64,000 bases of DNA from Flavobacterium sp. YJ01 (GTDB lineage: Bacteria > Bacteroidota > Bacteroidia > Flavobacteriales > Flavobacteriaceae), in assembly GCF_029320955.1 (NCBI RefSeq), contig NZ_CP119757.1, positions 4,402,001 to 4,466,000 on the forward strand, in the 5' to 3' direction. Of this stretch, positions 1,934 through 43,446 are shown piece after piece; the first letter of the stretch is position 1; each line of letters opens with the position of its first letter. A program made the position numbers and the translations under genes. The notes beneath the pieces were generated by a model, which saw only the letters and a program-made list of their open reading frames with translations, was not told the origin of the DNA and searched no databases.

Positions 1934-1936
1934 AAA

Positions 1937-1984
1937 ATAAGAACCCTAAATAATAAAGTAAGTATTATTATATAGGGTTCTTAT
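1937..1984. terminator. Bidirectional hairpin terminator
   Basis: A 12-bp stem (ATAAGAACCCTA at 1937-1948 with TAGGGTTCTTAT at 1973-1984) encloses a 24-nt AT-rich loop. It lies between the convergent genes ending at 1933 and 2009. Confidence 0.6.
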
Positions 1985-2008
1985 CGCTGTTGTTTCTTTA
2001 TTTATCGC

Positions 2009-2467: not shown

Positions 2468-2499
2468 TGCTAAGTTAAGTTGTTGAGTTAAGTTGAGTT

Positions 2500-2919: not shown

Positions 2920-2952
2920 AATATCTATAAGATAGTTTTAGTTACCAAAGGT

Positions 2953-3495
2953 TTAATTTGAAGTAACATATAATTCAATTTTTTTTACTGCGTGATGATA
3001 AGATGCTTTTAAGGCACCTACCGAAGTTCCTAAGATTTCGGCTATTTCTTCGTATTTTAATTCTTCAAAATATTTCATTTTGAAAACCAATTGCTGTTTT
3101 TCTGGAAGCGTTACGATTGCTTTTTGAAGTTTGATTTGAATTTCATCTCCATCAAAATAAAGATCAGCTTTTAGATTGTCAATTGTCTTATTTTGAAGAT
3201 CTTCAGACGAGATACCGCTCAATTTTGCTTTTTGAGACAGAAAAGTCAAAGCTTCATTTGTGGCAATACGATACATCCAGGAAAAAAGTTTACTTTCTCC
3301 TTTAAAGTTTTTAAGATATTGAAAGACTTTTATAAAAGTATTCTGCAAGACATCATCTACATCATCATGATTCAAAACAATATTTCGAATATGAGAATAC
3401 AGCGGACGCTGATAATCAGACAAGAGTTTTTGAAACGCTGTATTTTGCGTTTGAGGGTTTAATAATTGTTTTATAAATTCCTTCTCGTCTATCAA
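2953..3495 (-). CDS. ECF-type RNA polymerase sigma factor
   Basis: This is a 180-residue sigma-70 family protein of ECF length. Region 2 is clear (DDVDDVLQNTFIKVFQYLKN, followed by the FSWMYRIATNEALTFL helix), as is the region 4 helix-turn-helix (LPEKQQLVFKMKYFEELKYEEIAEILGTS... to YHHAVKKIE). It directs RNA polymerase to a stress or envelope regulon that cannot be named from sequence. It is the first gene of an operon with a one-TM protein and a Spy-like periplasmic protein, which is the usual layout for an envelope-sensing switch. Confidence 0.92.
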   Translation of the reverse strand: MIDEKEFIKQLLNPQTQNTAFQKLLSDYQRPLYSHIRNIVLNHDDVDDVLQNTFIKVFQYLKNFKGESKLFSWMYRIATNEALTFLSQKAKLSGISSEDLQNKTIDNLKADLYFDGDEIQIKLQKAIVTLPEKQQLVFKMKYFEELKYEEIAEILGTSVGALKASYHHAVKKIELYVTSN

Positions 3496-3570
3496 ACTTT
3501 TTTGTTGTAAACCTTCTTAATATACATTAGACTGAATTTGAAACAAAAGGTTAAAAAAAACTTTTGAAAT

Positions 3571-4761
3571 TTAGAATTCAGAGTCTTCTTCTTGCGTAGG
3601 AGCAGGAGTTGGTGCAGGAGCTGGTTTCTTTTTAACAGGCTCTTTTCGTGGTTCTGTACGAGGTTCGCTTGTTGGAGTTTCTCCTTGTGTTTCGCTCGAT
3701 GTTTGCGGTGCGTAAACAGGTTCTGCTACAACAGGAACTACTTTTGGTTTTATTGGAAAATAGATTTCTGTAACCAATTTAGATGATGCTTTTACATCTA
3801 ATTTGCTTAGTGTCCAAATTTCTAAATGTGACCAGCTTAAGTCTGGAATTATTTTTTGATTATTGATGTAAGCCGTTGTTTTTGTAATAGCTTCATTTCG
3901 ATGCGAGTAATCCCCGTTAAGTGTCGTTTTTACAGCATCAAAACCATTTAATTTTCCTGATAAAATATCGCTTCCAGAGCTAATAGAAATTTCTTTATTG
4001 ATTGGTAAGCAGATTGAAATCTTTGCTAAACCTGTTTTAGTATCGTAAGTATGATAAATAATAAAAGGTTTTCCGCTTTCAGATAAGCCATTTGCCTCGC
4101 TAAACTGAATCAATTTCGGAATAACAATTCTAGCATTCTTGTTTACTTTTGAAATTTCACTTGTAAAAGTCTGACGAATATAAGGTGTTTCTGTTTTCTT
4201 CACTACGCCATCCACTTTAACTGCATAAGTTTTAGTTTCGTAGTCTAGATTTTTGTCAATATTTACCAAGCTTTTTTCATAAATAGTTCCGATAACTTTA
4301 TCAGAACCTCCATGCAAAGAAGTATAGATTTTAAATAGAAAACTCATTGTACCTTTTGCTCGCCAAGTAACTTTTGTTTTTCCGTTTAAAGTATCTTTCA
4401 AAGTCCAGCTTACATCGGCCTCTGTACCGTCATATTGCATTTTTTGAGCAATGCTTTCGCCTTCTTTTGTTTTAAGTGTAATTGCATTTCCTTTTCCATC
4501 AGCGCCATCCCAATAAAATGAAGCGCCATTTCCGCTTGTCTTATTAGCAAAAGTCATTTTTATAGAAGGATCTTCAACCGACCAAGATTCAAAATCTTCG
4601 TAATTTCTAAAATCATTAAGATAATTGTAAACTGTTGCGCGAGGCGAATTGATAACTTTACTTCTTTCTACAGAAAAATTTCCCTTTTGAGTAGCAACAA
4701 AAACAGTAAGAGCAACAAAGCTTAATAACGCAAAAAGAAATAAATACTTAAGAATTTTCAT
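3571..4761 (-). CDS. SRPBCC / GyrI-like two-domain protein with Pro-rich tail
   Basis: This is a 396-residue protein. An N-terminal hydrophobic anchor or signal (residues 1-24) is followed by a polyketide-cyclase-like SRPBCC domain (about 30-175, with the NSPRATVYNYLNDFRNYEDF start). A second domain of about 190-340 resembles the GyrI-like ligand-binding fold. The last 50 residues are low-complexity, rich in Pro, Glu, Lys and Thr. SRPBCC and GyrI-like domains bind small hydrophobic ligands, but no substrate can be inferred. The gene is monocistronic and lies upstream of a small membrane protein gene on the same strand. The tail is unusual and may be cell-surface exposed or disordered. Confidence 0.72.
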   Translation of the reverse strand: MKILKYLFLFALLSFVALTVFVATQKGNFSVERSKVINSPRATVYNYLNDFRNYEDFESWSVEDPSIKMTFANKTSGNGASFYWDGADGKGNAITLKTKEGESIAQKMQYDGTEADVSWTLKDTLNGKTKVTWRAKGTMSFLFKIYTSLHGGSDKVIGTIYEKSLVNIDKNLDYETKTYAVKVDGVVKKTETPYIRQTFTSEISKVNKNARIVIPKLIQFSEANGLSESGKPFIIYHTYDTKTGLAKISICLPINKEISISSGSDILSGKLNGFDAVKTTLNGDYSHRNEAITKTTAYINNQKIIPDLSWSHLEIWTLSKLDVKASSKLVTEIYFPIKPKVVPVVAEPVYAPQTSSETQGETPTSEPRTEPRKEPVKKKPAPAPTPAPTQEEDSEF

Positions 4762-4889
4762 TGGTAGATTGTTTGGTTCGTAAAGTTATAAATTTATTGT
4801 CAGTCTTACTAATAACCGCTAATTATTAGGTTTTATTATGATGATTAATTTTTTGTTTAAAAACGAAATTTTTTAAGTTTCAAAAAAAC

Positions 4890-5078
4890 TTATCTTTTAA
4901 AGAATATTTTAATCAAAAACAAAATAGCAATAAAGAGTAAAAAAACAAGAAGTACTTTGTAATTTCCTTTGTAAAAGATTTTGTGCAGTGCTAAATCTTT
5001 TCGATAAGCAAAAATCATTATGATTACAAATGCAATAAAAAAACACACTCCAAATAGTATTTGTCCTTGACTAAACAT
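4890..5078 (-). CDS. Small two-TM membrane protein
   Basis: This is a 62-residue protein with two hydrophobic segments (about 5-24 and 41-59) separated by a short basic loop (YRKDLALHKIFYKGNYK). No family is recognised. It is bounded by AT-rich spacers. The composition and length look like a genuine small inner-membrane protein rather than a chance ORF. Confidence 0.5.
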   Translation of the reverse strand: MFSQGQILFGVCFFIAFVIIMIFAYRKDLALHKIFYKGNYKVLLVFLLFIAILFLIKIFFKR

Positions 5079-5213
5079 AGTTTTAAAATTATTTTTGACA
5101 AATTTAGAGAATTGTATACGATTTGCTGCTAAATTGGCTTTTCATTTCATGGAATAAATTTTCGAATTTATCCTAAAGTCACTTATATTAGCAAAAAAAA
5201 GGAAAACTATAAT

Positions 5214-5594
5214 ATGAAAAAACAACTCGACGCCGTAACAGAATTTCACACTGCTTTTAAAATTGGCCATAGCGCAACTCCAGTTGCTGATGTAGGAGCA
5301 GAAAAAAAATTACTTCGTTATAACTTAATGAAGGAAGAAAATGAGGAATATTACGAAGCGGTTCAGAATAATGATTTAGTTGAAATTGCTGATGCGCTTG
5401 GCGATATGATGTATATTTTGTGCGGAACAATTATTGAACACGGACTTCAGGATAAAATTGAAGCTGTTTTTGATGAAATTCAGCGTAGTAATATGAGTAA
5501 ACTTGGTGAAGACGGAAAACCAATTTATAGAGAAGACGGAAAAGTAATGAAAGGTCCAAATTATTTTAAACCTGATTTTTCTAAATTGTTGTAA
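5214..5594 (+). CDS. MazG-like nucleoside triphosphate pyrophosphohydrolase
   Basis: This is a 126-residue all-alpha NTP-PPase domain protein. It shows the family's acidic Mg-binding pattern: EENEEYYEAV then EIADALGDMMYILCG (EExxE...ExxD). The C-terminal part (SNMSKLGEDGKPIYREDGKVMKGPNY) matches the phosphoribosyl-ATP pyrophosphohydrolase-like subfamily seen in bacteria and phages. The family hydrolyses NTPs or modified nucleotides to NMP and pyrophosphate; the substrate is not determinable here. It is a single gene, followed by a palindromic repeat. Confidence 0.82.
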   Translation: MKKQLDAVTEFHTAFKIGHSATPVADVGAEKKLLRYNLMKEENEEYYEAVQNNDLVEIADALGDMMYILCGTIIEHGLQDKIEAVFDEIQRSNMSKLGEDGKPIYREDGKVMKGPNYFKPDFSKLL

Positions 5595-5677
5595 AGAAGA
5601 TTAAACGCAAAGAACGCTAAGTTTTTTTTCTGTAGTTCTTATAAAAAAACAAAGTCCGCAAAGCTTTACGTTATTTT

Positions 5678-5806
5678 TGTCATTTCGACGAAGGAGAAAT
5701 CTTCGCAAGAAACTCCACATAGCAAATCGATAATCTTTGTCGAGCTACTTACGAAGATTTGCTTCGCCTATTCGCTATCGCTCGGGTCTCCTTCGTCGAA
5801 ATGACA
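5678..5806. repeat. Dispersed hairpin repeat, copy 1 (with 30-nt insert)
   Basis: An imperfect palindrome begins TGTCATTTCGACGAAGGAGA and ends with its near complement (TCTCCTTCGTCGAAATGACA). It belongs to a family with other copies at 28862, 30574, 36727 and 47956. This copy is longer because its right arm is interrupted at about 5759-5788 by a 30-nt segment that also occurs, in reverse orientation, at 49726-49755. With the terminator at 5861, this accounts for the gene-free stretch 5595-5911; I see nothing else there. Confidence 0.8.
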
Positions 5807-5860
5807 AGATTGAGTTTATATCTTATCTTCACGATAAAATTTTATAATAAAGCCAAATAA

Positions 5861-5898
5861 AAAAACCGATAAAACTAAATTTATCGGGTTTCTTTTTT
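5861..5898 (-). terminator. Terminator of ilvE
   Basis: A hairpin (AAACCGATAAA paired with TTTATCGGGTTT, one bulge) with A-rich and T-rich flanks lies just beyond the ilvE stop codon. Confidence 0.65.
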
Positions 5899-5911
5899 GT
5901 ATGTTTTTAGA

Positions 5912-6982
5912 TTATTGAACTTTAACTGTCCATCCAAAAGTGTCTTCAGAAAGTTTGTTTTGAAGATTTGTTAGTTTTTCTTTTAAGAATGAAGCATATG
6001 AATTCTCAATTGGAGTCATTTCATAATATTCGTCTTTATATGAGAATCCTTTAATAACACTAATTACGGCAGCAGTTCCTGCGCCGAAGATTTCTTTCAA
6101 AGATCCGTTTTTAGCTGCTTCTACTAATTCTGAAACAATTACTGGACGGACATCAACTTTTAATCCTTCTTTTTCAGCCATTGCAATTAAACTTTTTCTG
6201 GTAACACCATCTAAAATTCTTTCGCTTGTTGGAGCTGTTAATAAAGTATCGTTAATTCTGAAGAAAACGTTCATTGTACCGGCTTCTTCTAATTTTGTAT
6301 GCGTTGCATCGTCAGTCCAAATAACTTGTTGGAAACCATCTTTGTTTGCCAAGTTAGTCGGGTAAAATTGTGCAGCGTAGTTTCCGGCAGCTTTTGCAGC
6401 ACCGATACCACCATTTGCAGCTCTACTGAAATGTTCAGCGATAATTACTTTTACTTCGCCTCCGTAATATGCTTTTGCAGGAGAAAGTAAAATCATAAAT
6501 TTATATTCGTCAGAAGGATTTGCAATTACTCCAGGTCCTGTAGCAATCATAAAAGGACGAATGTACATACTTGCTCCGTTTCCTCTTTGAATCCAGTCTT
6601 TGTCTAATTTCAATAATTCATTTAAACCATCCATAAAAATAGACTCAGGAACTTCTGGCATCGCCATTCTTACAGCAGATTTATTAAAACGGATGAAGTT
6701 TTCATCTGGTCTAAACAACCAAACATCATTATTGTCATCTTTATAAGCTTTCATTCCTTCAAAAATAGCTTGTCCGTAGTGGAAGACTTTTGAAGATGGA
6801 TCCATTAGAATAGGAGCATAAGGCTTAATGACAGGATTTTGCCATTGTCCGTCTTTAAAATCGCATTCGAATAAATGGTCTGTAAATACAGCGCCAAAAC
6901 TTAAGTTTTCAAAATCTACTTCGTTTATTTTTGTAGAAGTAGCTTTTATGATTTCAATTTTGCTTGTTTGAGTTGTACTCAT
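5912..6982 (-). CDS. ilvE: Branched-chain amino acid aminotransferase
   Basis: This class IV PLP enzyme makes or degrades Leu, Ile and Val by transamination with 2-oxoglutarate. I place the start at 6982 (MSTTQTSKIE, 356 residues), the usual family length; the 11-residue upstream extension is unlikely. The PLP lysine is K197 in GIGAAKAAGNYAA. The substrate-side motif is LEEAGTMNVFF, and TSERILDGVTRKS is the conserved C-terminal segment. A perfect -7 box (TAATTTTG) lies upstream on the minus strand. It is divergent from mnmD. Confidence 0.95.
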   Translation of the reverse strand: MSTTQTSKIEIIKATSTKINEVDFENLSFGAVFTDHLFECDFKDGQWQNPVIKPYAPILMDPSSKVFHYGQAIFEGMKAYKDDNNDVWLFRPDENFIRFNKSAVRMAMPEVPESIFMDGLNELLKLDKDWIQRGNGASMYIRPFMIATGPGVIANPSDEYKFMILLSPAKAYYGGEVKVIIAEHFSRAANGGIGAAKAAGNYAAQFYPTNLANKDGFQQVIWTDDATHTKLEEAGTMNVFFRINDTLLTAPTSERILDGVTRKSLIAMAEKEGLKVDVRPVIVSELVEAAKNGSLKEIFGAGTAAVISVIKGFSYKDEYYEMTPIENSYASFLKEKLTNLQNKLSEDTFGWTVKVQ

Positions 6983-7065
6983 AGTTCTGTAAGTTTTTTG
7001 TGAGATATCTTTCACTATAGGAAATCTAAAGTAATGATATCATGGAAAATAGAATTTATTGAATG

Positions 7066-7073
7066 CAAAATTA
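7066..7073 (-). promoter_or_regulatory. ilvE -7 promoter box
   Basis: The minus strand reads TAATTTTG, a perfect match to the Bacteroidota TAnnTTTG -7 element, about 85 nt upstream of the ilvE start. Confidence 0.6.
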
Positions 7074-7228
7074 AGTAAAAATATGTAAAAAGCTTAGTGA
7101 AAATTCATTATTTAATGGTTTTGACTGAGATTTATTTATCCTATAATAAACTCAAATATTTAGTTGATTTTTATAAAGAATTTATGAAAAAAGTATCGAT
7201 TTTTAAGGCTTTACGCATTAGTTTTGAC

Positions 7229-7236
7229 TAAATTTG
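7229..7236 (+). promoter_or_regulatory. mnmD -7 promoter box
   Basis: TAAATTTG matches TAnnTTTG perfectly, about 54 nt upstream of the mnmD start. No clean TTTG -33 element is visible. Confidence 0.55.
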
Positions 7237-7289
7237 AATATTAAAACGGCTTGAAAATCAATAAAAAGCTATTGTAAATTTCTAAAAAA

Positions 7290-7952
7290 GTGAAAAGAGA
7301 AATAATTAAAACGTTAGATGGTTCAACTACAATTCGTTTGCCAGAATGGGACGAATGTTATCATTCTAAACACGGAGCAATTCAAGAAGCAAAACACGTA
7401 TTTATAAAAAATGGACTTTCATTATTTGAAAATCCTATAAGTATATTAGAAATTGGTTTTGGAACTGGTTTAAATGCATTTATTACTTTTTTGGAAGCCA
7501 TTCGAAAAAATCAGAAAATAGATTATGTTGGAGTAGAAGCTTATCCTGTTGATGCAGATGAAATTTTAGAAATGAATTATGCAGAAGAATTAGAAGCATT
7601 GGAATTTAGTAACATTTTTGAAAAAATGCATAAATCAGTTTGGAATGAAAAAGTAGAAATTTGCGATCAGTTCTCGTTAACCAAAAGGAAACAATTTTTT
7701 GATGAAATTGACGATTTTGAAACATTTGATTTGATTTACTTTGATGCCTTCGGATATAGAGTGCAACCGGAGCTTTGGAGTACAGAAATTTTTCAGAAAA
7801 TGTACAATAGTTTAAAGCCTAATGGAGTTTTGGTTACTTATGCAGCTCGCGGAGTTGTTAAAAGAAGCATGATTGCTGTAGGATTTACCGTGGAAAAATT
7901 AGCTGGACCTCCTGGTAAACGAGAAATGTTTAGAGCCTTTAAAAACCTTTAG
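7290..7952 (+). CDS. mnmD: tRNA 5-methylaminomethyl-2-thiouridine methyltransferase
   Basis: This 220-residue DUF752 methyltransferase corresponds to the methyltransferase half of E. coli MnmC. It methylates the wobble uridine of tRNAs to complete mnm5s2U. The SAM-binding motif ILEIGFGTGLNAF is visible near residues 55-67, YFDAFGYRVQPELW follows near 150, and the end GPPGKREMFRA is typical. The start codon is GTG at 7290, with no upstream ATG in frame. As in many flavobacteria, the gene is stand-alone and divergent from ilvE. Confidence 0.9.
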   Translation: MKREIIKTLDGSTTIRLPEWDECYHSKHGAIQEAKHVFIKNGLSLFENPISILEIGFGTGLNAFITFLEAIRKNQKIDYVGVEAYPVDADEILEMNYAEELEALEFSNIFEKMHKSVWNEKVEICDQFSLTKRKQFFDEIDDFETFDLIYFDAFGYRVQPELWSTEIFQKMYNSLKPNGVLVTYAARGVVKRSMIAVGFTVEKLAGPPGKREMFRAFKNL

Positions 7953-24592: not shown

Positions 24593-25630
24593 TTATGCAT
24601 TTATTTCAGTTGGTTTTTCAGAATCATAGCGCGAAATGGCGTCTTGAAGTATCTTTTTCATACGATTTCTCAGACCTTCTGGTCTTAAAATTTCAACACA
24701 GCTTCCAAAACCTAATAAAAGCCGTTCCATTTCGTAATTTGGAATTACATATATATGTATAATGACACTTCTGTCTTCATTTTCCTTGATTAATCGCTGA
24801 GAAGTATGCAAAGGTTTTGTAAGTACATAAGGTGCATTCGAAGCGTCAACCCATAATTCGATTCTTCTAGCTTTTAATCCTGAATTAACGGTAACGCCAA
24901 TTATATCTTTATAATAATCATCGGAATCAAAATCTTCTTCTAAATAGGGAAGATTAAAATCGTAATCAATAGAAATAATTCTGTCTAAAGCTAAATTTGT
25001 AATCGGCTGAGAAGCTTTTTTCTTTCCGACCAAAAACCAACGATTATTAAATTCCTTTAATATAAAAGGATGAAAATGAAATTTTGTTTCTTCTCTGGAT
25101 TTAAAAGATTTATAAGTAATAATTAGAACCATTTTCTTGATAATCGCCTGATATATTTCATCTAAATAATGAAGTCCTTTTAAGTTTTCATTTTTGTCCA
25201 GATAAATAACTGGTTTGGTATGTGATTTTTCGGCGTAGATTTTATCTTCCAAACGTTGTAGAATATCCGAAACATCATTAAATAAAGAGAAATCTTTAAA
25301 TTGCTTCAACATCGAAACGGTTTCAGTCAAAACATTCATATCTGTTTCCGTTAGCGGAATATCGGTTATCGAAAAATCTTCGTCTTCATATTTATAATAC
25401 TTTTTATCGTAAACCACGATTGGCGCATTATAACCCAATTTCTCACTTCGCATCAACTGAATATCCATTTGAATAGTTCGCTTGCTAATTGGGTTTTGGC
25501 GTCCTTCGTATTCAGATAAAGCTCCAGAACATTCTTCGATTAAATCTTCTAATGTCCATTGTCTATATTTGTTCTGAAGGCATTTATCGATGGTTTTGTA
25601 TCGGATTAAGGCGTTTTTGTTTTGTGACAT
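24593..25630 (-). CDS. WYL-domain transcriptional regulator
   Basis: I start at 25630 (MSQNKNALIRYKTIDKCLQ, 345 residues); the longer reading runs back into repeat DNA. The N-terminal HTH spans about 1-70. The central WYL domain (about 160-240, KKMVLIITYKSF...HFHPFILKEFNNRWFLVG) is followed by a WCX-like C-terminus (about 255-340). WYL proteins sense nucleic-acid-related ligands and often control DNA-damage, defence or RNA-repair loci. It lies next to the HD/rsr/Y-RNA/rtcB genes and is the obvious candidate to bind the shared palindrome at 26595 and 28212. This link is inference. Confidence 0.85.
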   Translation of the reverse strand: MSQNKNALIRYKTIDKCLQNKYRQWTLEDLIEECSGALSEYEGRQNPISKRTIQMDIQLMRSEKLGYNAPIVVYDKKYYKYEDEDFSITDIPLTETDMNVLTETVSMLKQFKDFSLFNDVSDILQRLEDKIYAEKSHTKPVIYLDKNENLKGLHYLDEIYQAIIKKMVLIITYKSFKSREETKFHFHPFILKEFNNRWFLVGKKKASQPITNLALDRIISIDYDFNLPYLEEDFDSDDYYKDIIGVTVNSGLKARRIELWVDASNAPYVLTKPLHTSQRLIKENEDRSVIIHIYVIPNYEMERLLLGFGSCVEILRPEGLRNRMKKILQDAISRYDSEKPTEINA

Positions 25631-25644
25631 GTTTTTATGATTTT

Positions 25645-25738
25645 GGGCGTGTCCCTCCGGGCCGGGCTTTACGTTCCCGCTTTTTTTAAGGCGAAGAAAA
25701 ATCGCCTTAAAAAAGAGCTCCACTTCAATCCCTCACGC
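25645..25738. repeat. Dispersed GC-rich repeat with internal hairpin
   Basis: A 94-nt segment from GGGCGTGTCCCTCCGGGCC to ATCCCTCACGC is much more G+C-rich than its surroundings. It contains a hairpin (TTTAAGGCG / CGCCTTAAA, 25685-25712). Its look is that of a common Bacteroidota intergenic repeat; no second copy is visible in this window. Confidence 0.5.
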
Positions 25739-25740
25739 AT

Positions 25741-25776
25741 TTACGTTAATAATGAAATCTCGTTTTCAATGATTTT
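25741..25776 (-). pseudogene. Relic of a duplicated HD-gene 3' end
   Basis: On the minus strand 11 codons plus stop read KIIENEISLLT, nearly the same as the end of the HD gene (RINIEKEISILT) that stops at 25946. This looks like a leftover from duplication of the gene end, separated from it by palindromic repeats. Confidence 0.45.
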
Positions 25777-26573: not shown

Positions 26574-26645
26574 CAAATTTAAAATTCTTTTTTTACTGCG
26601 CAAAATAATTGCGTAGTGGTTTTGAAATCTTTGTTCAAGAAATAA
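26574..26645. promoter_or_regulatory. Divergent HD/rsr control region with palindromic operator
   Basis: The 23-bp inverted repeat ACTGCGCAA-N5-TTGCGTAGT (26595-26617, one arm mismatch) lies between the genes. On the minus strand TTTG within it is followed after 19 nt by TAAATTTG (26574-26581), a complete promoter for the HD gene. On the plus side the block continues TTTGAAATCTTTGT...AAGAAATAA to 26645. It matches the block upstream of the Y RNAs at 40 of 51 positions. Confidence 0.75.
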
Positions 26646-26682: not shown

Positions 26683-28200
26683 ATGAAATTCAATTTTTTA
26701 GCAAAAGAGAAAAACAATATAGTTAATCACGAAAACGCACCAGCTTTTTCTTTAACATCAGAATACGAATTGTACACAGCAGTCGTAACAACAAGTTTGA
26801 GTGCTTCATTTTATGAAAAAGATACAACTCGTTTAGAGCGAATCAAAAACTTGATTAAAAAATGCAATCCGGTATTTGTTGCAAAATTGGCAGTTTATGC
26901 CCGTAACGAAATGCATATGCGTTCTGTGCCATTAGTTTTGGTTGTAGAATTGGCTAAGATTTATTCTGGCGATTCTTTAATCAGTAAAATGATAATTAAT
27001 GTTATACAACGTGCAGACGAAATAACAGAATTGTTAGCGTATTACCAAATGGCAAACGAACGAAATGGCGTTAAGAAATTAAATCGTTTATCAAAGCAAA
27101 TCCAAAAAGGTTTAGCGGTTTCATTCAATAAATTTGACGAATACCAATTCGCAAAATACAATCGTGATGGTGCTGTAAAATTAAAAGATGCGTTGTTTTT
27201 GGTTCATCCAAAAGCAAAAGACGAAGCGCAACAAACCATTTTTAATAAAGTTGTGAGTAACACTTTGCAAACGCCATATACTTGGGAAACTGAGTTGTCG
27301 CAATTAGGTCAAATAAAGTTTTATAACGAATTTGAAAAACAAAAAGCATTCACCCAAAAATGGGAAGAATTGATTGATAGCGGTAAAGTAGGTTACATGG
27401 CTTTGTTGCGTAACTTACGAAATATCTTAGAAGCGAATGTTTCGGGTTTTCATATGCAAAAAGTATGCGATTACCTTTCTAACGAAAAAGCAGTCGCAAA
27501 CTCAAAACAATTGCCATTCCGATTTTTAGCAGCGTATCGTGAAGTGAAAGATTTGAATTTCAAATATACTTCAATGGTTTTAGATGCTTTGGAAGATGCT
27601 GTTACGGCAAGTTCACAAAACATAAAAGGTTTTGATTTGAATACATCTATTGTAATTGCGTGTGACGTTTCGGGTTCGATGCAACAGCCAATTTCAGCAA
27701 AAAGTAAAGTATTGCTTTACGATATTGGTTTGATGTTGGGTATGTTAATGCAAAGGCGTTGTAAAAATGTGGTTAGCGGTATGTTTGGTGATCGTTGGAA
27801 AATAATCAATATGCCAAAGCGAAGCATATTGGCCAACGTTAATGAATATTACAAACGCGAAGGTGAAGTGGGTTACGCTACAAACGGTCATTTGGTTTTG
27901 GAAGATTTAATTGGCCGAAAAGAAATTGTAGACAAAGTAATGTTGTTTACAGATGTTCAAATGTGGAATAATGCGTACGCAAAAGACTCATTTGCAAACT
28001 CCTGGAGCCGATACAAAAAGATCGCTCCAAATGCAAAATTGTATTTGTTTGATTTGGCTGGTTACGGTCAGGCGCCAATTAACATCGAAAAAAACGATGT
28101 ATATTTAATAGCCGGTTGGTCAGATAAAGTGTTTGATGTTTTGAATGCTTTAGACGATAAAAACAGCGCATTAAATTACATCAATCGAATAGAATTGTAA
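26683..28200 (+). CDS. rsr: Ro60/TROVE-domain RNA-binding protein
   Basis: This is a 505-residue bacterial Ro60 orthologue (Rsr). The TROVE HEAT-repeat ring covers about residues 15-315 (for example NPVFVAKLAVYARNEMHMRSVPLVLVVEL). A vWA-like domain follows with the MIDAS motif DVSGS at 328-332 and FTDVQMW near 427. Ro proteins bind Y RNAs on the outer ring surface and ends of misfolded RNAs in the central hole. They work in RNA quality control, in Deinococcus with PNPase. Directly downstream are five Y-RNA-like modules and then rtcB, as in the Salmonella rsr-yrl-rtcBA arrangement. Confidence 0.95.
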   Translation: MKFNFLAKEKNNIVNHENAPAFSLTSEYELYTAVVTTSLSASFYEKDTTRLERIKNLIKKCNPVFVAKLAVYARNEMHMRSVPLVLVVELAKIYSGDSLISKMIINVIQRADEITELLAYYQMANERNGVKKLNRLSKQIQKGLAVSFNKFDEYQFAKYNRDGAVKLKDALFLVHPKAKDEAQQTIFNKVVSNTLQTPYTWETELSQLGQIKFYNEFEKQKAFTQKWEELIDSGKVGYMALLRNLRNILEANVSGFHMQKVCDYLSNEKAVANSKQLPFRFLAAYREVKDLNFKYTSMVLDALEDAVTASSQNIKGFDLNTSIVIACDVSGSMQQPISAKSKVLLYDIGLMLGMLMQRRCKNVVSGMFGDRWKIINMPKRSILANVNEYYKREGEVGYATNGHLVLEDLIGRKEIVDKVMLFTDVQMWNNAYAKDSFANSWSRYKKIAPNAKLYLFDLAGYGQAPINIEKNDVYLIAGWSDKVFDVLNALDDKNSALNYINRIEL

Positions 28201-28211
28201 ATTTTAAATCT

Positions 28212-28262
28212 ACTGCGCAAAATAATTGCGCAGTATGATTTGAAAATTTGTAAAAGAAATAA
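28212..28262 (+). promoter_or_regulatory. Palindromic operator/promoter of the Y-RNA array
   Basis: A perfect inverted repeat ACTGCGCAA-N5-TTGCGCAGT (28212-28234) is followed by TTTGAAAATTTGTAAAAG and AAATAA. It starts 12 nt after the rsr stop and ends 23 nt before the first Y stem. The same block precedes rsr (26595-26645), with the downstream TTTG at the same distance. This points to one activator or repressor controlling both units. Confidence 0.75.
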
Positions 28263-28284: not shown

Positions 28285-28433
28285 AAACAAGTGTCGTAGA
28301 TAAGTGTTACTTCGCTGTTAACGACGTTGTCACGGGTTCGAGTCCCGTCACTTCCGCAAGAAAAAAAATATAAAAGGAAGTGTAGCTCAGTGGTAGAGCA
28401 CGTAAATTTCACTTATCGTTTGTTGCCTTGTTT
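28285..28433 (+). ncRNA. Y-RNA-like ncRNA 1 with permuted tRNA-like module (YrlA-type)
   Basis: The lower stem is AAACAAG (28285-28291) with CTTGTTT (28427-28433). TGTCGTA follows, then the upper stem GATAAGTG (28299-28306) / CACTTATC (28410-28417), then CTTCG. Inside is a complete tRNA-like fold in permuted order: variable loop, T arm ACGGG-TTCGAGT-CCCGT (28332-28348), acceptor strand CACTTCC, a 20-nt linker, acceptor strand GGAAGTG (28376-28382), TA, D arm GCTC-AGTGGTA-GAGC, A26. A 3-bp remnant of the anticodon stem joins it to the Y stem. The acceptor stem is 7 perfect base pairs. This is the architecture known for bacterial YrlA, which binds Ro and mimics tRNA. Confidence 0.88.
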
Positions 28434-28443
28434 AAAAAATAAA

Positions 28444-28579
28444 AAAAAGAATGTCGTAAATAAGAGTTACTTCGTCTCAAATTTGGGGAGGAATAGCGAA
28501 GTTGTAAAATCAGCAAGGTTATCCAGTTCGACTCTGGCAAGACAAGCCCCGTTTCTCTTATTGCTTTTTACTTCTTTTT
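28444..28579 (+). ncRNA. Y-RNA-like ncRNA 2 with degenerate tRNA-like module
   Basis: The lower stem is AAAAAGAA (28444-28451) / TTCTTTTT (28572-28579). TGTCG follows, then the upper stem ATAAGAG (28460-28466) / CTCTTAT (28555-28561) and ACTTCG. The interior retains a T arm (CCAG-TTCGACT-CTGG, 28523-28537) and a GGGG/CCCC closing pair (28485-28488 with 28547-28550). The D-arm region (AGCGAAGTTG...) is weak. Here the halves are in normal, not permuted, order. It starts 10 nt after module 1. Confidence 0.8.
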
Positions 28580-28585
28580 AAAAAC

Positions 28586-28655
28586 TGAAAAATGTCGTGT
28601 GTGAGAGCTACTTCGTAAAGGTTTCAAAATACTCTCATCAATTATTACTTTTTCA
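28586..28655 (+). ncRNA. Y-RNA-like ncRNA 3, minimal
   Basis: The lower stem is TGAAAAA (28586-28592) / TTTTTCA (28649-28655). TGTCG follows, with the upper stem TGAGAG (28602-28607) / CTCTCA (28632-28637) and CTTCG after it. The interior loop is only 24 nt, with no tRNA-like elements. At 70 nt this is a bare Y stem, similar in plan to animal Y RNAs. Confidence 0.78.
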
Positions 28656-28660
28656 AAAAA

Positions 28661-28742
28661 TAAGATGCCGTGTATAAGTGTTACTTCGTCGGTTGATTTA
28701 TTAGGTTCGAATCCTAAAGTCACTTATCAATTATTGCTCTTA
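28661..28742 (+). ncRNA. Y-RNA-like ncRNA 4 with isolated T arm
   Basis: The lower stem is TAAGA (28661-28665) / TCTTA (28738-28742). TGCCG is followed by the upper stem ATAAGTG (28674-28680) / CACTTAT (28721-28727) and ACTTCG. The interior keeps one perfect tRNA T arm, TTAGG-TTCGAAT-CCTAA (28701-28717), and no D arm or acceptor stem. The module is 82 nt long, 5 nt after module 3. Confidence 0.8.
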
Positions 28743-28746
28743 AAAA

Positions 28747-28818
28747 AAAAGAGTGTCGTCAGGAAATGGTTCCTTCGTTCCAAAGAAATTTAAACCATTC
28801 CTAAATGTTACCTCTTTT
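28747..28818 (+). ncRNA. Y-RNA-like ncRNA 5, minimal with a bulged stem
   Basis: The lower stem is AAAAGAG (28747-28753) / CTCTTTT (28812-28818). TGTCGTCA is followed by the upper stem GGAAATGGT (28762-28770) / ACCATTCC (28794-28801), with one bulged A, then CTTCG. The interior is a short A-rich loop. Module 5 has the most diverged upper stem, yet it keeps pairing, the TGTCG/CTTCG frame and GTTAC before the 3' lower strand. Confidence 0.75.
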
Positions 28819-29092: not shown

Positions 29093-30514
29093 ATGAAAAC
29101 ACAAATAAGCGGAACAGATATATTAGAATTAGGATTTCCAGAAGGAAAAATAATTGGGATTGCCTTAAAAATAAATAGCAAAAGAAACGGATTTACAAGA
29201 GACGAAATGATTACAAATTTCAAAAACGTCCTAGAAACTCCGGAAAATTATATAGACGATAAAATCTTCAGCAAACTGGCTGTGGCTTTAATCGAAAAAT
29301 CGAATGAAAAACCAGAAGATTTCATTGCTTTAAATCAGAATCCAAATGCATATTCGGCTTACGGATTAGATCATATCGAAGACGGAGCCAGAAAACAAAT
29401 GGAAGTTGCCATGAAATTGCCGGTTACGGTTGCGGGAGCTTTAATGCCAGACGCGCACCAAGGTTACGGATTACCAATTGGAGGAGTTTTAGCCACAAAA
29501 AATGCCATTATTCCGTATGGAGTTGGGGTTGATATTGGGTGTAGAATGGCGTTGTCAGTTTATGATATTCCAGAAGATTTTTACTTTGAAAACGAAGCTA
29601 AATTCAAAAGAGAATTAATTGCCAATTCCATTTTTGGAGCAGGTCACGGATTTCACGGTCAGTACAAATCAGATCATGCGGTTTTGGAGAACGATACATT
29701 TAATATGAATCCGTTTGTGAAGAATTTGAAAGATAAAGCTTGGTCGCAATTAGGATCTTCGGGTGGTGGAAATCACTTTGTGGAATTCGGAATCATGGAA
29801 TTTGCCAAAGACGATGTGGTTTTAAATATTCCAAAAGGAAAATACGTCGCTTTGTTAACGCATTCGGGTTCACGCGGAATGGGTGCCACAATCGCTGGAC
29901 ATTATACTAAAATCGCCAAAGACGAATGTAAACTTCCAGAAGTGGCAAAAAACTTAGCGTATTTGGATATGAATTCGCAATTAGGACAAGAATATTGGTT
30001 GGCGATGAATTTGGCGGGAGACTACGCTTCGGCTTGTCACGAGATTATCCATAACAAAATGGAACGCGCTTTGGGTGCGACGATTTTAGCCAAAGTCGAA
30101 AACCACCATAATTTTGCCTGGAAAGAAATCTGGAACGGCGAAGAAGTGATCGTACATAGAAAAGGAGCAACTCCAGCCGGAAAAGGCGTTATGGGAATCA
30201 TTCCGGGAAGTATGACCGCACCTGGATTTTTGGTGAGAGGAAAAGGCGAGGAGAACGCCATCAATTCGGCTTCGCATGGAGCAGGAAGACAAATGAGCAG
30301 AACCCAAGCCATAAAAAACATCACACAAACCGAAATGAAATCGATCCTGAGAGATCATGGCGTTACGCTTATCGGTGCAGGTCTAGACGAAGCTCCAATG
30401 GCGTATAAAGATATCAATCAGGTGATGGAAGCGCAACAGGATTTAGTAGATGTTATAGCGAAGTTTACGCCAAAATTAGTGAGAATGGCGGATGATGGGA
30501 GTCGAGAAGATTAG
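29093..30514 (+). CDS. rtcB: RNA-splicing ligase RtcB
   Basis: I choose the ATG at 29093 (MKTQISGTDI, 473 residues) because the upstream codons lie in intergenic repeat DNA. RtcB joins RNA 2',3'-cyclic phosphate or 3'-phosphate ends to 5'-OH using GTP and Mn. Metal ligands are visible: D147 and C150 in GVDIGCRM, H228 in GGGNHFVE, H257 in THSGSRG, and the ENHHN His pair near 338. The guanylylated His is H395 in SASHGAGRQ. With rsr and Y RNAs upstream it forms an RNA-repair operon. No RtcA cyclase or archease is present. Confidence 0.96.
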   Translation: MKTQISGTDILELGFPEGKIIGIALKINSKRNGFTRDEMITNFKNVLETPENYIDDKIFSKLAVALIEKSNEKPEDFIALNQNPNAYSAYGLDHIEDGARKQMEVAMKLPVTVAGALMPDAHQGYGLPIGGVLATKNAIIPYGVGVDIGCRMALSVYDIPEDFYFENEAKFKRELIANSIFGAGHGFHGQYKSDHAVLENDTFNMNPFVKNLKDKAWSQLGSSGGGNHFVEFGIMEFAKDDVVLNIPKGKYVALLTHSGSRGMGATIAGHYTKIAKDECKLPEVAKNLAYLDMNSQLGQEYWLAMNLAGDYASACHEIIHNKMERALGATILAKVENHHNFAWKEIWNGEEVIVHRKGATPAGKGVMGIIPGSMTAPGFLVRGKGEENAINSASHGAGRQMSRTQAIKNITQTEMKSILRDHGVTLIGAGLDEAPMAYKDINQVMEAQQDLVDVIAKFTPKLVRMADDGSRED

Positions 30515-31853: not shown

Positions 31854-33932
31854 ATGGAAATAAGGAAAATACGCATTAAGAATTTCAGATTATTAAAAGA
31901 TTTTAAATTAGATCTCGAAAATAATCTTTCATTAATAATTGGAAAAAATAACACAGGGAAAACTTCTCTTTTGTCAGTTTTAGAAAAGTTCTTAACAGAC
32001 AAGAGTACTTTTTCTATTAACGATTTTCATATAGATCAAATAAAAAAACTTGAAAAACTTGAAAAAAGAAATGTAATTAATATTGGTAATGATTTTGATT
32101 TTAAAATTCAATTATTTTTTGAAATTTTTTACGACAAAGAAGATAGTCTGAAAAATATATCATCTCTTATTTTAAATCTTGAAGATGAAAACAAGGTCAT
32201 TCTAGGTTTTGAATATTATTTAAATCCAGATAGCTACAGCAATCTAATTCGAGAATATGGACTTTATAAATCAGAAAACACTAAAAAAAATATTACTGAT
32301 TTTCTAAGAAAAACAGATAATAAAAGATTTTTCAAAATGGAGATTAAATCCTTCATATTTGATGGAGATGAAGTTATAAGTTCTCAAGTAATTAAAGATA
32401 AGAATATAATTTCAAAAATTATAAATTTTCAAAGTATAAAGGCAAAACGAGATGTCAATAATTCTGATAGTAATAGACCAGATAAGACATTATCAAAACT
32501 ATCTTCAGATTATTATGAAAGTATCGAAAATAGTCAACAAGAACAAGAAACTATAAATAGACTTAATAAAGAATTAGGAAGTACTGATGAGAAATTAAAT
32601 AAAATATATCCATCTGTCTTTAAAGATGTCATTAAAAAGGTAGAACTTTTCGGAGGAAAAATGCCTGGAGAATCTTCAATTAAAATATTATCATCATTAC
32701 AGAGTAAAAACATTTTAAAAGAAAACACGTCTGTTTTTTATGACCAATCAAATTTTCAATTGCCCGAAGATTATCACGGCTTAGGATACATGAATCTATT
32801 TGCGATGATTTTTGAGATAGAACTCAAGTGTAAAAAGTTTAGAAGAGAAAATGAAAAATTGGATAATCAAATTCCAGCAGATATAAATTTATTATTCATA
32901 GAGGAACCAGAAGCACATATGCATCCTCAAATGCAACACATTTTTATAAAAAATATATCAAAAATTTTAGAGAATGAAAAGAAAGGTCTTGATTCAGATG
33001 GCAGTAGAGTTTCGGATAGATCACAATTTAACCTTCAAGGAATAGTAACTACTCATTCTTCACACATTACAGCAGAAAGCGATTTTGATACGGTAAAATA
33101 CTTCTATAAAATTGCAAGCGAAAATAAAGTTATATGCAAAAATTTAAAAGATTTAAAGAACGAGTACTCAAAAGAAACAAACCAATATGAATTTTTAAAG
33201 CATTATTTGACTTTAAATAGAGCAGAATTATTCTTTGCTGATAAAGCGGTTTTAATTGAAGGAGATACAGAAAGATTGTTATTGCCCGTTATGATGGTAA
33301 AATTGGACAACGAAAACAAATTTGATTTACCATTATTATCGCAAAATATTTCAATTATTGAAGTTGGAGCTTATTCTCATATTTTTGAAAAATTCATTGA
33401 CTTTATAGGTGTTAAATATTTGATTATTACGGATTTTGATACATGCAAGAAAGTAAAAACAGGTGAGTTCAATAAAAAAAATGAGCCCATATTTGAAAAT
33501 AAATTATGTAGGGTTGATGATCCAGAGGCTAGTGGTAGTTTAAATAATGCAATCAAACATTTTTTAAAAGGAAACTCATTTAGTGAATTGAAAACATCTG
33601 AAGAGAATTTTTATTTAAAAAAGAATTCATTATGTATTGCTTTTCAACACCGTGAAAACAGTTATCATGCAAAAAGTTTTGAAGATGCATTCATAAATTT
33701 AAACAGAAAATTTATTTCGGATAATAAATCTGTTTTTAAGGGATTGAAAAATATTAAACATTTCGATTTAAAAGGCGATGCGATTAAAGATGCATACGAT
33801 TTAGCTGAACATTGTATTGATAAAAAAACGCATTTTGCATTGGATATTATTTATTATAGTTCTGCTGAGAATTATACTACTTGGGAAATTCCATTATATA
33901 TAAAAGAAGGATTATTATGGCTACAGAAATAG
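31854..33932 (+). CDS. OLD-family ATPase/TOPRIM nuclease (GajA-like)
   Basis: This is a 692-residue protein. The N-terminal ABC-type ATPase has Walker A GKNNTGKT (30-37), a GLGYMN signature near 309, Walker B LLFIEEPEAHMHP (346-358) and THSSH near 400. The C-terminal TOPRIM nuclease has VLIEGDTE (E469) and ITDFDT (D527/D529). This is the architecture of class 2 OLD nucleases. The partner gene overlaps it by 16 bp and is a UvrD-like helicase, as in the Gabija anti-phage system. It is longer than Bacillus GajA (578 aa), so Gabija-like is safer than Gabija. The gene is visibly AT-rich, which suggests transfer. Confidence 0.88.
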   Translation: MEIRKIRIKNFRLLKDFKLDLENNLSLIIGKNNTGKTSLLSVLEKFLTDKSTFSINDFHIDQIKKLEKLEKRNVINIGNDFDFKIQLFFEIFYDKEDSLKNISSLILNLEDENKVILGFEYYLNPDSYSNLIREYGLYKSENTKKNITDFLRKTDNKRFFKMEIKSFIFDGDEVISSQVIKDKNIISKIINFQSIKAKRDVNNSDSNRPDKTLSKLSSDYYESIENSQQEQETINRLNKELGSTDEKLNKIYPSVFKDVIKKVELFGGKMPGESSIKILSSLQSKNILKENTSVFYDQSNFQLPEDYHGLGYMNLFAMIFEIELKCKKFRRENEKLDNQIPADINLLFIEEPEAHMHPQMQHIFIKNISKILENEKKGLDSDGSRVSDRSQFNLQGIVTTHSSHITAESDFDTVKYFYKIASENKVICKNLKDLKNEYSKETNQYEFLKHYLTLNRAELFFADKAVLIEGDTERLLLPVMMVKLDNENKFDLPLLSQNISIIEVGAYSHIFEKFIDFIGVKYLIITDFDTCKKVKTGEFNKKNEPIFENKLCRVDDPEASGSLNNAIKHFLKGNSFSELKTSEENFYLKKNSLCIAFQHRENSYHAKSFEDAFINLNRKFISDNKSVFKGLKNIKHFDLKGDAIKDAYDLAEHCIDKKTHFALDIIYYSSAENYTTWEIPLYIKEGLLWLQK

Positions 33933-35914
33933 ATGATATATTTAATGCTATCGAATCAGGAAATCATTTTCTTTTAAGTGGTGGTGCAGGTAGTGGAAAA
34001 ACTCATACCTTAATTGAATTATTAAATAAACTATATAAAGACAATCCTAAAGTTAGTATAGCATGTATAACATTTACGAATGTTGCTGCTGACGAAATTC
34101 AGGAACGTACGAATTATGATAATTTAGTGATCTCAACAATTCATGATTTTTTGTGGATGAATATTAGTCCATATCAAATTAACTTGAAAAAATCGCTTAT
34201 AGAATTAAATCCAGATGATGGTTTAAATTTTGATGAAATTGAAAGAATAGATTATCGTGAATATCGGAACTTTAAAAAAGGTATTATCAAACATGAAGAT
34301 GTACTTGTTATAGCAGAACATTTATTTATAACATATCCTCTATTGTCTAAAATTATAAAAGATAAATACGATTATATTTTTATCGATGAGTATCAAGATA
34401 CTTATAAGCCTGTAATTGAGATATTCTTTAACCATTTAAATAAAACAAGTAAAAGGAATGTGATTGGACTTTTTGGAGATAGGATGCAATCAATTTATCA
34501 AGATGGGGATAATTTGTCAGAATATATTGAAGATAAGAGAGTTGATATTCCTCTAATTATTGAAGTACCAAAAAAAGTTAATCGTAGAAATCCACAAAGT
34601 GTAATTGATTTAGCTAACAATATTAGATTAGATCCATTAGAGCAAAATGCAGAAATAAATCCATATGCGCCAAATAATAAAGATGGAGCTATCAAACAAG
34701 GGAATACAAAATTTGTATTCACTAAAAAAGCAAATAAAGATGCTTATAATATTATAAAAGCAAAGTTCTGTAAAAATTGGAATTTTAAAGATTCAAAAAA
34801 CACCAAACTTCTTTTTTTGTCTCACTCACTTATTGCAAGTGAGGCTGGTTTTGCTAGTTTAATTGATATATACGATAAAGACAAAATTGTAGGAAGTGGA
34901 GGGTATGTCGAAAGAATAAAAAAATATGTTGCAAAGAATTCAATAAAAGATGATTTAACAGATATGTCATTTATTGAAGTTATTAATACTTTACTAAAAA
35001 GAATAGACGAAGGATTAGAGTTTGAAAAAGGCCTAGATGAATTAAAAAATATTCTAAATAACGAATCTACTTTAAGCTATCTTAAGGCTATTAACATACT
35101 TAACAGAAAATATTCTGAAATTAAAGAGATATTACCTACGGAAGGAATTTATGATTTTTTATCTGCTAATGTAGCAATATTTAATTTTGCAAAAAGCATG
35201 AATTTTGAAGAATTAAAAAGTATTTATTTAAGTAAAGATAAATTAATTGGAAAAAAGAAAAGTAAGAATGAAGAATCAAACAAAAGAAATGATGAAAGAG
35301 ATTATTTGATAAGATATTTAATAAGAATACAGGAAATAATATCACTATATGAAAGTAAAAATTATTATGCCTTAATAAATAAAAGTGATTTTAAAATTAA
35401 TAGAGGGATAGACAAAGCTGAATTAAATAAAAAATTAAGAGATCTTCATTTAGTTAAAGAAGAAAGTATAGAAACAGTGATAAGAAAAGCAGATGAGCTT
35501 ATGTTATGTCAGATTGATGAGAGGACTAAACATTTTTTAGATAAAAATAAGTTTCTATTTGAACGTGTAAAAAAAGTTAATTTTAAAGAAGTCGAATGTT
35601 TATATAAATATGTTGAAAATGAAACAGTTTATTCTACTCAGCACGGTATAAAAGGTGCAGAATTTAATAATGTTTTAGTTTTTCTTGATAAAAGTGCCAA
35701 TACAAAATTAAATTATAAAGCACTTTTTGAAAAAACGGTTGATAAAGAATCTATAATTGAGAGAACGCAAAAGCTATTTTATGTTTGCTGTACTAGAGCG
35801 ATGGATGATTTAATTGTTTTTTATAATGATGAATATAGTGAAGAAGTAATAGAGCAGGCTAAAATTTGGTTTGGAGAAAAGAATATATTTAACATTGATG
35901 ATTTGGTATCTTAA
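33917..35914 (+). CDS. UvrD/Rep-like SF1 helicase (GajB-like)
   Basis: I start at 33917 (MATEIDDIFNAIESGN, 665 residues), giving a 16-bp overlap with the nuclease gene, usual for translational coupling. Helicase motifs in order are Walker A GAGSGKTHT (23-31), motif Ia ITFTNVAADEI, Walker B YIFIDEYQDT, motif III GLFGDRMQSIYQ, motif V TQHGIKGAEFNNVLVFLD and motif VI FYVCCTRAMDDL. In Gabija the helicase-like subunit senses DNA termini or nucleotide depletion and works with the OLD nuclease. It is larger than B. cereus GajB (494 aa), with a charged 2B-like insertion around residues 330-540. Confidence 0.88.
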   Translation: MATEIDDIFNAIESGNHFLLSGGAGSGKTHTLIELLNKLYKDNPKVSIACITFTNVAADEIQERTNYDNLVISTIHDFLWMNISPYQINLKKSLIELNPDDGLNFDEIERIDYREYRNFKKGIIKHEDVLVIAEHLFITYPLLSKIIKDKYDYIFIDEYQDTYKPVIEIFFNHLNKTSKRNVIGLFGDRMQSIYQDGDNLSEYIEDKRVDIPLIIEVPKKVNRRNPQSVIDLANNIRLDPLEQNAEINPYAPNNKDGAIKQGNTKFVFTKKANKDAYNIIKAKFCKNWNFKDSKNTKLLFLSHSLIASEAGFASLIDIYDKDKIVGSGGYVERIKKYVAKNSIKDDLTDMSFIEVINTLLKRIDEGLEFEKGLDELKNILNNESTLSYLKAINILNRKYSEIKEILPTEGIYDFLSANVAIFNFAKSMNFEELKSIYLSKDKLIGKKKSKNEESNKRNDERDYLIRYLIRIQEIISLYESKNYYALINKSDFKINRGIDKAELNKKLRDLHLVKEESIETVIRKADELMLCQIDERTKHFLDKNKFLFERVKKVNFKEVECLYKYVENETVYSTQHGIKGAEFNNVLVFLDKSANTKLNYKALFEKTVDKESIIERTQKLFYVCCTRAMDDLIVFYNDEYSEEVIEQAKIWFGEKNIFNIDDLVS

Positions 35915-43201: not shown

Positions 43202-43446
43202 GCAACAAAGTTATTTATCGCATGAAATAGAGGCGAATAAACCGCCTTAAGATATTATTAAATTAGGCTTAGCATTAATTAATGATTTCCTTTGAATAAA
43301 ATTAAGCTCAATAAAAAGGGGATTTTTCCCCTTTCAAAAACGGGAAATTTCATAGAATAATTCAAAAACCTAAATCTTACTTTTATCCCAGTCATAATGC
43401 GGAAGCCGAAAAGCAAAAGAGTAGGCTTTATATAAATTAAAATAGT

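Follow-up and report, generated by a model that had tools for sequence, protein, structure and literature searches.

Y-RNA-like genes behind rsr

The window examined here, a 64-kb stretch of the 5.48-Mb genome of Flavobacterium sp. YJ01, carries five tandem Y-RNA-like genes between rsr, which encodes a Ro60-like protein, and the RNA ligase gene rtcB. The array is real and conserved, and it goes unreported at Rfam thresholds. The original prediction had placed Y-RNA-like RNAs beside a Ro60 gene, and this was supported by a match of module 1 to the YrlA family, compensatory changes in module 2 and its relatives (class B), co-occurrence with rsr, and recurrence in 79 of 80 rsr loci (the best 80 of 229 by Rsr similarity, mainly from Flavobacterium and Chryseobacterium, with flanks of about 4 kb). 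As judged from the sequences, the array probably encodes a set of Y RNAs under common control, tethered to Ro60 and fitted with interchangeable heads that mimic tRNA or rRNA. The modules, scored with the YrlA model, with a model of 23 aligned class B sequences (R1), or with a second module model (R2), are as follows.

28285..28433, plus strand: Y module 1, permuted tRNA-like head (YrlA, 43.5 bits, E = 2.5e-8 over 28303-28432)
28444..28579, plus strand: Y module 2, class B (R1, 152.5 bits; a training sequence)
28586..28655, plus strand: Y module 3, short, with no tRNA-like head (R2, 65.5 bits; a training sequence)
28661..28742, plus strand: Y module 4, head consisting only of a T-arm-like hairpin (R2, 49.1 bits, E = 1.5e-10; not a training sequence)
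28747..28818, plus strand: Y module 5, short (R2, 63.7 bits; a training sequence)

The modules (149, 136, 70, 82, and 72 nt, with gaps of 10, 6, 5, and 4 nt) occupy positions 28285-28818, starting 85 bp after the rsr stop codon and ending 275 bp before the rtcB ATG. A recount agreed with the predicted coordinates, gaps, and TGYCG-to-CTTCG spacing (23 nt in four modules and 24 nt in the fifth, which has one extra bulged nucleotide in its upper 5′ strand), as well as with the five self-complementary outer stems, each with TTGC or TTAC ahead of its 3′ strand. The stem pairs listed at that time as upper and lower stems do pair; the listed set comprises the lower (outer) stems, and the upper stems form a separate set, exemplified by GATAAGTG/CACTTATC.

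Read from the 5′ end, the common base consists of an outer stem of 5 to 8 bp, TGYCG, TN, an inner stem of about 8 bp, and YUACUUCG or a near variant, followed after the head by the inner 3′ strand, about 5 nt, TTRC, and the outer 3′ strand. Class B modules pair TGYCG with TTRC through G and Y on one side and R and C on the other, with a bulged U. With paired 5′ and 3′ ends and a conserved internal-loop base, the modules fit the broad definition of a bacterial Y RNA. Among 397 modules parsed from 79 loci and the window, the 8 letters ahead of the head were TTACTTCG in 187, ATACTTCG in 81, CTACTTCG in 36, and TTCCTTCG in 33, plus others, and the 3′ tetramer was TTGC in 184, TTAC in 155, and another sequence in 58. 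YUACUUCG, with variants, was nearly invariant across all module classes, and no pairing partner was found for it, bar a possible CUUC/GAGG pairing in class B; it is possibly a protein-binding single strand.

The outer stems of modules 1 to 5 pair with their own partners over 7, 8, 7, 5, and 7 bp, and strand swaps between the modules gave 0 to 5 bp, save for one A-rich/T-rich combination at 7 bp. Combined stem scores were 12 to 16 in the five modules, and both strands of the 64 kb yielded only two other parser matches, with scores of 9 and 10. The parser itself demands pairing and a combined stem score of 11, so the 397-module set cannot prove pairing; the relaxed parser also fused a few modules (9 rows with inserts of >135 nt and module 5 of locus L012). 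A swap test free of this bias, which takes each 5′ motif together with the stretch that follows as far as the next one, gave pairing of at least 5 bp for own strands in 390 of 438 modules, versus 281 of 2,204 combinations swapped within one locus; the other 48 modules did not reach 5 bp. The stems are conserved in relatives, a point on which the original prediction had been made to depend. The coding strand is set by the class B excess of G-U over A-C pairs (42 versus 9), by the conserved motifs, and by the model matches.

Class B heads

Module 2 contains a GGGG/CCCC helix (28485-28488/28547-28550), a long arm (28493-28522), a T-arm-like hairpin (28523-28537), and a GTC/GAC pseudoknot (28474-28476/28541-28543), and no Rfam family was listed over it at E ≤5. 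Class B sequences were picked by head sequence, not by pairing; 43 were found, and L080, which has no 3′ anchor, was set aside. The 24 nonredundant sequences plus that of the window gave an alignment of 25, of which L017 and L028 were dropped because their 3′ ends were misaligned and the rest were trimmed, leaving 23. Across these sequences, 98.5% of the cells in 35 pairs were paired, and two-sided changes occurred in 21 pairs, versus at most 6 with slid partners as controls. The GGGG/CCCC helix rests on conservation and not on covariation because three of its four pairs never vary, and RNAalifold alone, which is blind to pseudoknots, predicted in its place a competing CUUC/GAGG helix with invariant sides. 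The helix at columns 33-35/106-108, with two-sided changes in two of three pairs, crosses GGGG/CCCC and is therefore a pseudoknot. On this comparative evidence, module 2 is assigned to a new head class. In the 80 loci, R1 gave 373 matches at E ≤0.01, the best 300 of which were all on the rsr strand; a match of >75 bits, read as class B, was present in 62 loci, 22 of which had supplied the model.

Distribution and conservation of the array

The 5′ motif was found behind rsr in 2 to 11 copies per locus: 2 copies in 2 loci, 3 in 5, 4 in 13, 5 in 28, 6 in 16, and 7 to 11 in 15. The single locus without a copy (L047) lies on a contig that ends about 200 nt after rsr. There were 433 copies behind rsr; the minus strand had 6, and the first 5,400 bases also had 6, of which 4 belong to a Xanthocytophaga locus (L078) with modules on both sides of rsr. 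Within positions 1581-7373 of that locus, ARAGORN predicted 10 tRNAs among the Y modules on both sides of rsr, including a tRNA-Leu (7083-7149) inside a Y module and another tRNA that touches one.

Of 392 Bacteroidota genomes drawn evenly, 32 had an Rsr match and 18 had an R1 match, every one of the 18 being among the 32, so that the link to a Ro60 orthologue held for every R1-positive genome as well as for 79 of the 80 loci. The R1 scan was run with stricter filters, and the 18 genomes are therefore a lower bound. R2 matched 15 of 22 rsr genomes, with one match each near rsr in the R1-negative genomes G313 and G181; it had none in five R1-positive genomes (G434, G185, G224, and G310 among them) or in others that are R1-negative as well. 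Rsr was present in 11 of 150 genomes drawn from the genus, and the system is therefore patchy. The predicted location between rsr and rtcB holds in the window, with a looser link to rtcB than had been implied: a tblastn search placed rtcB in the flank of 26 of the 80 loci, and by this count it is a frequent, not a constant, neighbor of the array.

Six Flavobacterium loci (L012, L015, L022, L025, L028, and L033) gave values of 0.78 to 1.0 in 25 of 30 comparisons with the window modules; the exceptions were module 1 in L022, L025, L028, and L033 (0.58 to 0.70) and module 5 in L012 (0.57, misparsed). Best matches to window modules in eight more distant loci were 0.47 to 0.84, and paralogue identity within the window array was 0.36 to 0.65. 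In the Chryseobacterium loci L045, L065, L067, and L072, modules 1 and 2 best matched the two final modules of the array, with their order kept, and counterparts of module 3 also keep their order in relatives. By these comparisons, most heads are conserved at their place in the array across species.

Kinds of heads

The “graded tRNA modules” of the original prediction were not found; the heads of modules 1 to 5 are of different kinds, namely, permuted tRNA-like, pseudoknotted, none, T-arm only, and none. Module 1 spans the full YrlA model (1-114) and has its permuted tRNA-like domain, consisting of a T-arm (28332-28348), an acceptor 3′ strand (28349-28355), a loop, an acceptor 5′ strand (28376-28382), and a D-arm (28385-28399); this domain was not found in modules 2 to 5. 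The proposed Infernal search against Rfam thus recovered YrlA for module 1, at a score under the gathering cutoff of 69 bits, and none of the five modules was reported at gathering thresholds. YrlA matches in 7 further loci scanned reached at most 39 bits. Module 1 is classed by this match as a divergent YrlA relative. A crude comparison with host tRNA strings, which included trailing letters, yielded no convincing partner, and the idea that module 1 mimics a specific host tRNA was rejected.

A T-arm followed by a D-arm was seen in 98 of the 397 parsed modules. D-arm patterns were counted, without a shuffle control, in 197 inserts of 55 to 135 nt outside class B: 111 had the generic form, 26 a Gln-like form, 7 a Glu-like form, and 4 a Leu/Ser-like form, and 49 were left unassigned. 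Of 50 host tRNA strings, only tRNA-Gln, tRNA-Glu, and tRNA-Leu(caa) fit the three special patterns. At least two D-arm types occurred in 25 of 76 sources. The string CCTAA[AG]GTAGCG lay close behind CTTC in 11 loci, in ten of them within the array behind rsr and in one (L078) upstream of rsr. In the 23S-like heads, of which the parsed set has 7, a stretch of 19 to 31 nt near the start matched host 23S rRNA (93 to 100% identity, E = 5e-5 to 5e-11) in a segment that we take to be helices H69-H71. The window array has no 23S-like module.

Several other features were observed in these arrays. A recurrent Chryseobacterium head contains GAATAACAGTA (e.g., L060 8339 and L090 8102); this string stood behind rsr in 10 of the 80 loci, and no mimicked counterpart of it was found. 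A small conserved protein of about 73 to 75 amino acids with the motif GCSYCFPHG is encoded between Y modules in L090 (7074-7301) and L041 (from 5905), and the L090 copy had no NCBIfam match. In L056, the T-loop of two Y modules (6827 and 6997) appears split by the insertion of a hairpin or of a stretch resembling a repeat.

A shared palindrome and a candidate regulator

28212..28234, plus strand: operator-like palindrome ACTGCGCAAAATAATTGCGCAGT, perfect, upstream of the array; -7-like element AAAATTTG at 28243-28250
26595..26617, plus strand: operator-like palindrome with 1 mismatch, upstream of rsr; -7-like element AATCTTTG at 26626-26633
24593..25633, minus strand: WYL and WCX domain transcriptional regulator (PF13280/PF25583), candidate regulator of the locus

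With up to 3 mismatches, the 23-bp palindrome ACTGCGCAAAATAATTGCGCAGT has two sites in the whole genome, and the reversed control had none. Its strict form gave 55 sites in 47 of 81 sources, none of them on the minus strand; since the loci are related, these sites are not independent. They lay just upstream of rsr (8 sites), behind rsr (46 sites), or elsewhere (1 site), and a parsed module followed at <150 nt in 25 cases and at 150 to 400 nt in 12. A -7-like octamer stood 29 or 30 nt after 52 of the 55 sites; the pattern, TAnnTTTG, is presumably of the Bacteroidota type, and the search also accepted any first base. Between the WYL gene and rsr, eight more distant loci had similar palindromes, two apiece in six of them (L039, L048, L052, L054, L055, and L063) and a single one each in L040 and L042; L185, L189, and L190 had one upstream of rsr.

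Of the 31 other rsr genomes, 22 were tested for the WYL protein, the nine with weak Rsr matches being left out. A homologue (E ≤1e-20) was present in 18, comprising all 17 R1-positive genomes and 1 of the 5 without R1, and in 14 of the 18 its distance from rsr was at most about 7 kb. In the 80-locus set, the upstream 4-kb flank contained a WYL gene in 30 loci and in none of the Chryseobacterium loci. We infer that the WYL protein binds the shared palindrome.

Phage and plasmid records

Seven IMG/VR contigs encode Rsr relatives. R1 modules numbered five in L109, three each in L107, L110, and L112, two in L111, one in L108, and none in L106; R2 matched L109, L111, L112, and, weakly, L110. Some of these matches overlap predicted tRNA genes (e.g., L112 3426-3497). 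Six of 95 phage records and one of 78 plasmid records with an Rsr match were also examined: R1 matched phages L204, L205, and L207, R2 weakly matched L208 and the Deinococcus plasmid L210, and neither model matched L206 or L209. At the Rfam threshold, no YrlA was found in the six phages or the plasmid. Visual inspection of Xanthomonas phage Olaya (L205) and Brevundimonas phage Kabachok (L206) showed arrays of about 4 to 5 YrlA-like RNAs each, with differing D-arms, upstream of rsr. Phage csAssE-Sib (L204), a gut phage, has Y stems (by eye) around two annotated tRNA genes, apparently enclosing tRNA-Tyr and tRNA-Lys at 3107-3383, and the two annotations may therefore mark heads of Y RNAs. Folding did not support two L204 structures (z = -0.28 and 0.13) and modestly supported an L205 structure (z = -1.75). 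A permuted tmRNA match (RF04321, 57 bits) lies near rsr in Kabachok (7276-7531).

Relation to known systems

Bacterial Y RNAs are mostly known from one or two examples per genome, with one tRNA-like head. The modules resemble YrlA (RF02553) in their adjacency to rsr and their long-range stem, with the T-arm, acceptor, and D-arm of module 1 in permuted order; they differ in that each array holds several different RNAs, most heads are not YrlA-like, and module 1 is under the family cutoff. YrlA is described in PMC8394870 as a substrate of DusA and TruB and as a PNPase tether. In the Deinococcus RYPER, the Y RNA tethers Rsr to PNPase and gates substrates, according to PMC8394870 and PMC4726728. 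The Flavobacterium locus likewise combines a Ro60-family ring protein with Y RNAs whose base stem would serve as a handle; unlike the Deinococcus system, it has a panel of heads, rtcB, and a WYL gene. As in the Salmonella rsr-yrlBA-rtcBA operon, rsr, Y RNAs, and rtcB share one locus. The Salmonella operon is under RtcR and includes rtcA, and YrlA may inhibit an anticodon nuclease, as PMC7790460 has it; here, a WYL gene and a palindrome with a -7-like element are present instead, and related loci have 2 to 11 motif copies. Phage-encoded Rsr with Y RNAs, as in Olaya and Kabachok, also places rsr beside Y-like arrays, but those arrays lie upstream of rsr and have another consensus (GTGG[TC]G..). 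Y RNAs beside an Rsr-like gene have been suggested for a Listeria phage in PMC12282133. Among the literature matches listed, no Bacteroidota Y-RNA array was found, and the survey of Chen et al. (2014) may mention such loci.

Proposed function and alternatives

The five Y RNAs would be made together with the Ro60-like ring protein: upon RNA damage, the WYL regulator, acting at the shared palindrome, would switch on rsr and the array together, and a single transcript would be cut into separate RNAs. By analogy with the Ro60/Y RNA family, the common base would be a handle on the outer face of the Ro60 ring, and the heads would be interchangeable effector modules. Heads that mimic tRNA (a D-arm/T-arm elbow of various isotypes) or 23S rRNA may bring enzymes that act on tRNA or rRNA (nucleases, modifying enzymes, PNPase, or repair factors) to Ro60, or occupy them; the short heads may simply cover the RNA-binding surface of the ring. 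More tentatively, and with less than even confidence, we suggest that Ro60 in Bacteroidota and several phages displays a library of RNA mimics that combines one handle with different imitations (several tRNA isotypes by D-arm, a phage tRNA with its anticodon loop, the 23S H69-H71 segment, and a pseudoknotted T-arm head) and that is induced with rtcB in loci that have it and would serve to detect, sort, or protect damaged tRNA and rRNA in phage or toxin conflict.

Several observations weigh against a coordinately controlled panel of tethered mimics. The YrlA score of module 1, 43.5 bits, is below the gathering cutoff, and modules 2 to 5 had no credible Rfam match, with no YrlA listed at E ≤5. 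The permuted-tRNA score was reached by 131 of 197 real inserts, and in the shuffled set (10 draws for each insert that had a T-loop pattern, at most 197 inserts; a poor control) 454 draws reached it too. The rest of the 23S-like heads did not rise above 100 shuffles against 23S rRNA in any of the seven cases. No parsed module lay within 400 nt of 18 of the 55 strict palindrome sites, 8 of them being the sites just upstream of rsr. The WYL homologue is not near rsr in G357, G470, and G506, is on another contig in G410, and is missing from the 4-kb upstream flank of 50 of the 80 loci. Folding z-scores were -1.95, -0.62, -0.90, -0.28, and -2.86 for modules 1 to 5, and by this measure the reverse strand folds better in four of the five; free-energy z-scores, being weak, were dropped as proof of structure.

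An unlikely alternative is that the RNAs are sponges that mimic tRNA elbows, anticodon loops, and rRNA and absorb nucleases or toxins during phage attack, with Ro60 only as a stabilizer. A phage Y module encloses, by eye, a tRNA-Lys-like insert with the loop CTTTTAA, and another phage module opens with a tRNA-Asn-like anticodon loop; L078 and L063 have tRNA genes between their Y modules, the window has a Gabija system nearby, and the idea of YrlA as an inhibitor is raised in PMC7790460. The window heads and the other bacterial heads inspected, however, have no clear anticodon arm, the short heads mimic nothing recognized, and no attacking nuclease is known here. A pure gate or tether, with RNAs that link Rsr to PNPase and gate its substrates and with copies that serve as redundant dosage, has its precedent in the Deinococcus RYPER (PMC8394870 and PMC4726728), but we judge it improbable, as the copies look nonredundant: paralogues are 0.36 to 0.65 alike, and positional counterparts are kept in order.

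Leader or attenuator elements that control rtcB would suit an array lying 275 bp ahead of its ATG; this reading was rejected as very unlikely, given that rtcB is in only 26 of the 80 flanks of about 4 kb and that the five modules are dissimilar and have their own promoter-like site. Type III antitoxin repeats are nearly identical and precede a toxin gene. The tandem structured RNAs, T-arm sequences, and class B pseudoknot recall such repeats or relics of tRNA duplication, but with modules that differ (identity, 0.36 to 0.65), stems that covary, and rsr and rtcB as neighbors, the antitoxin assignment was rejected, and phylum-wide recurrence with covariation argues against tRNA relics; we regard either origin as extremely unlikely.

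The conserved combination of one handle with different heads suggests a role for Ro60 as a general platform, with a task determined by the head, and the array offers natural paralogues for learning what each head binds. Ro60 may be tied to a new regulator (WYL) and to RNA repair, and the similar layout in phages provides a direct way to probe a role in tRNA or rRNA conflict. Rfam thresholds miss both the class B head and the Bacteroidota Y base, for which new families would be warranted.

Neighboring genes and other features

26683..28200, plus strand: rsr, Ro60-like protein with TROVE and vWA regions (PF05731, 105.8 bits; cutoff, 23)
29093..30514, plus strand: rtcB, RNA ligase (PF01139, 277 bits)

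Rsr is well above the TROVE cutoff; it is under those of the Ro60 vWA family (PF25045, 23.4 versus 27.7 bits) and of NCBIfam NF041674 (31.6 versus 900 bits). Searches with phmmer matched it to the solved TROVE proteins 9l5y/9kop (E = 8e-23) and gave E values of 0.16 for Ro60 (1yvp) and 0.28 for Rsr (2nvo). By these sequence scores, the window Rsr represents a divergent branch of Ro60-like proteins. No rtcA was found among the eight neighboring window proteins scanned. Directly downstream of rtcB and a TatD-like DNase gene is a Gabija antiphage pair at 31854-35914 (GajA, E = 5e-230; GajB, E = 3e-180). A Flavo-1 RNA (RF01705, 48 bits) lies at 25656-25751 on the minus strand, close to the WYL gene start; Flavo-1 also occurs directly behind rsr on the opposite strand in L056 and L084 (above the family cutoff) and in L090 (below it). 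A DUF805b RNA (RF02914) match is located at 43396-43427 on the plus strand.
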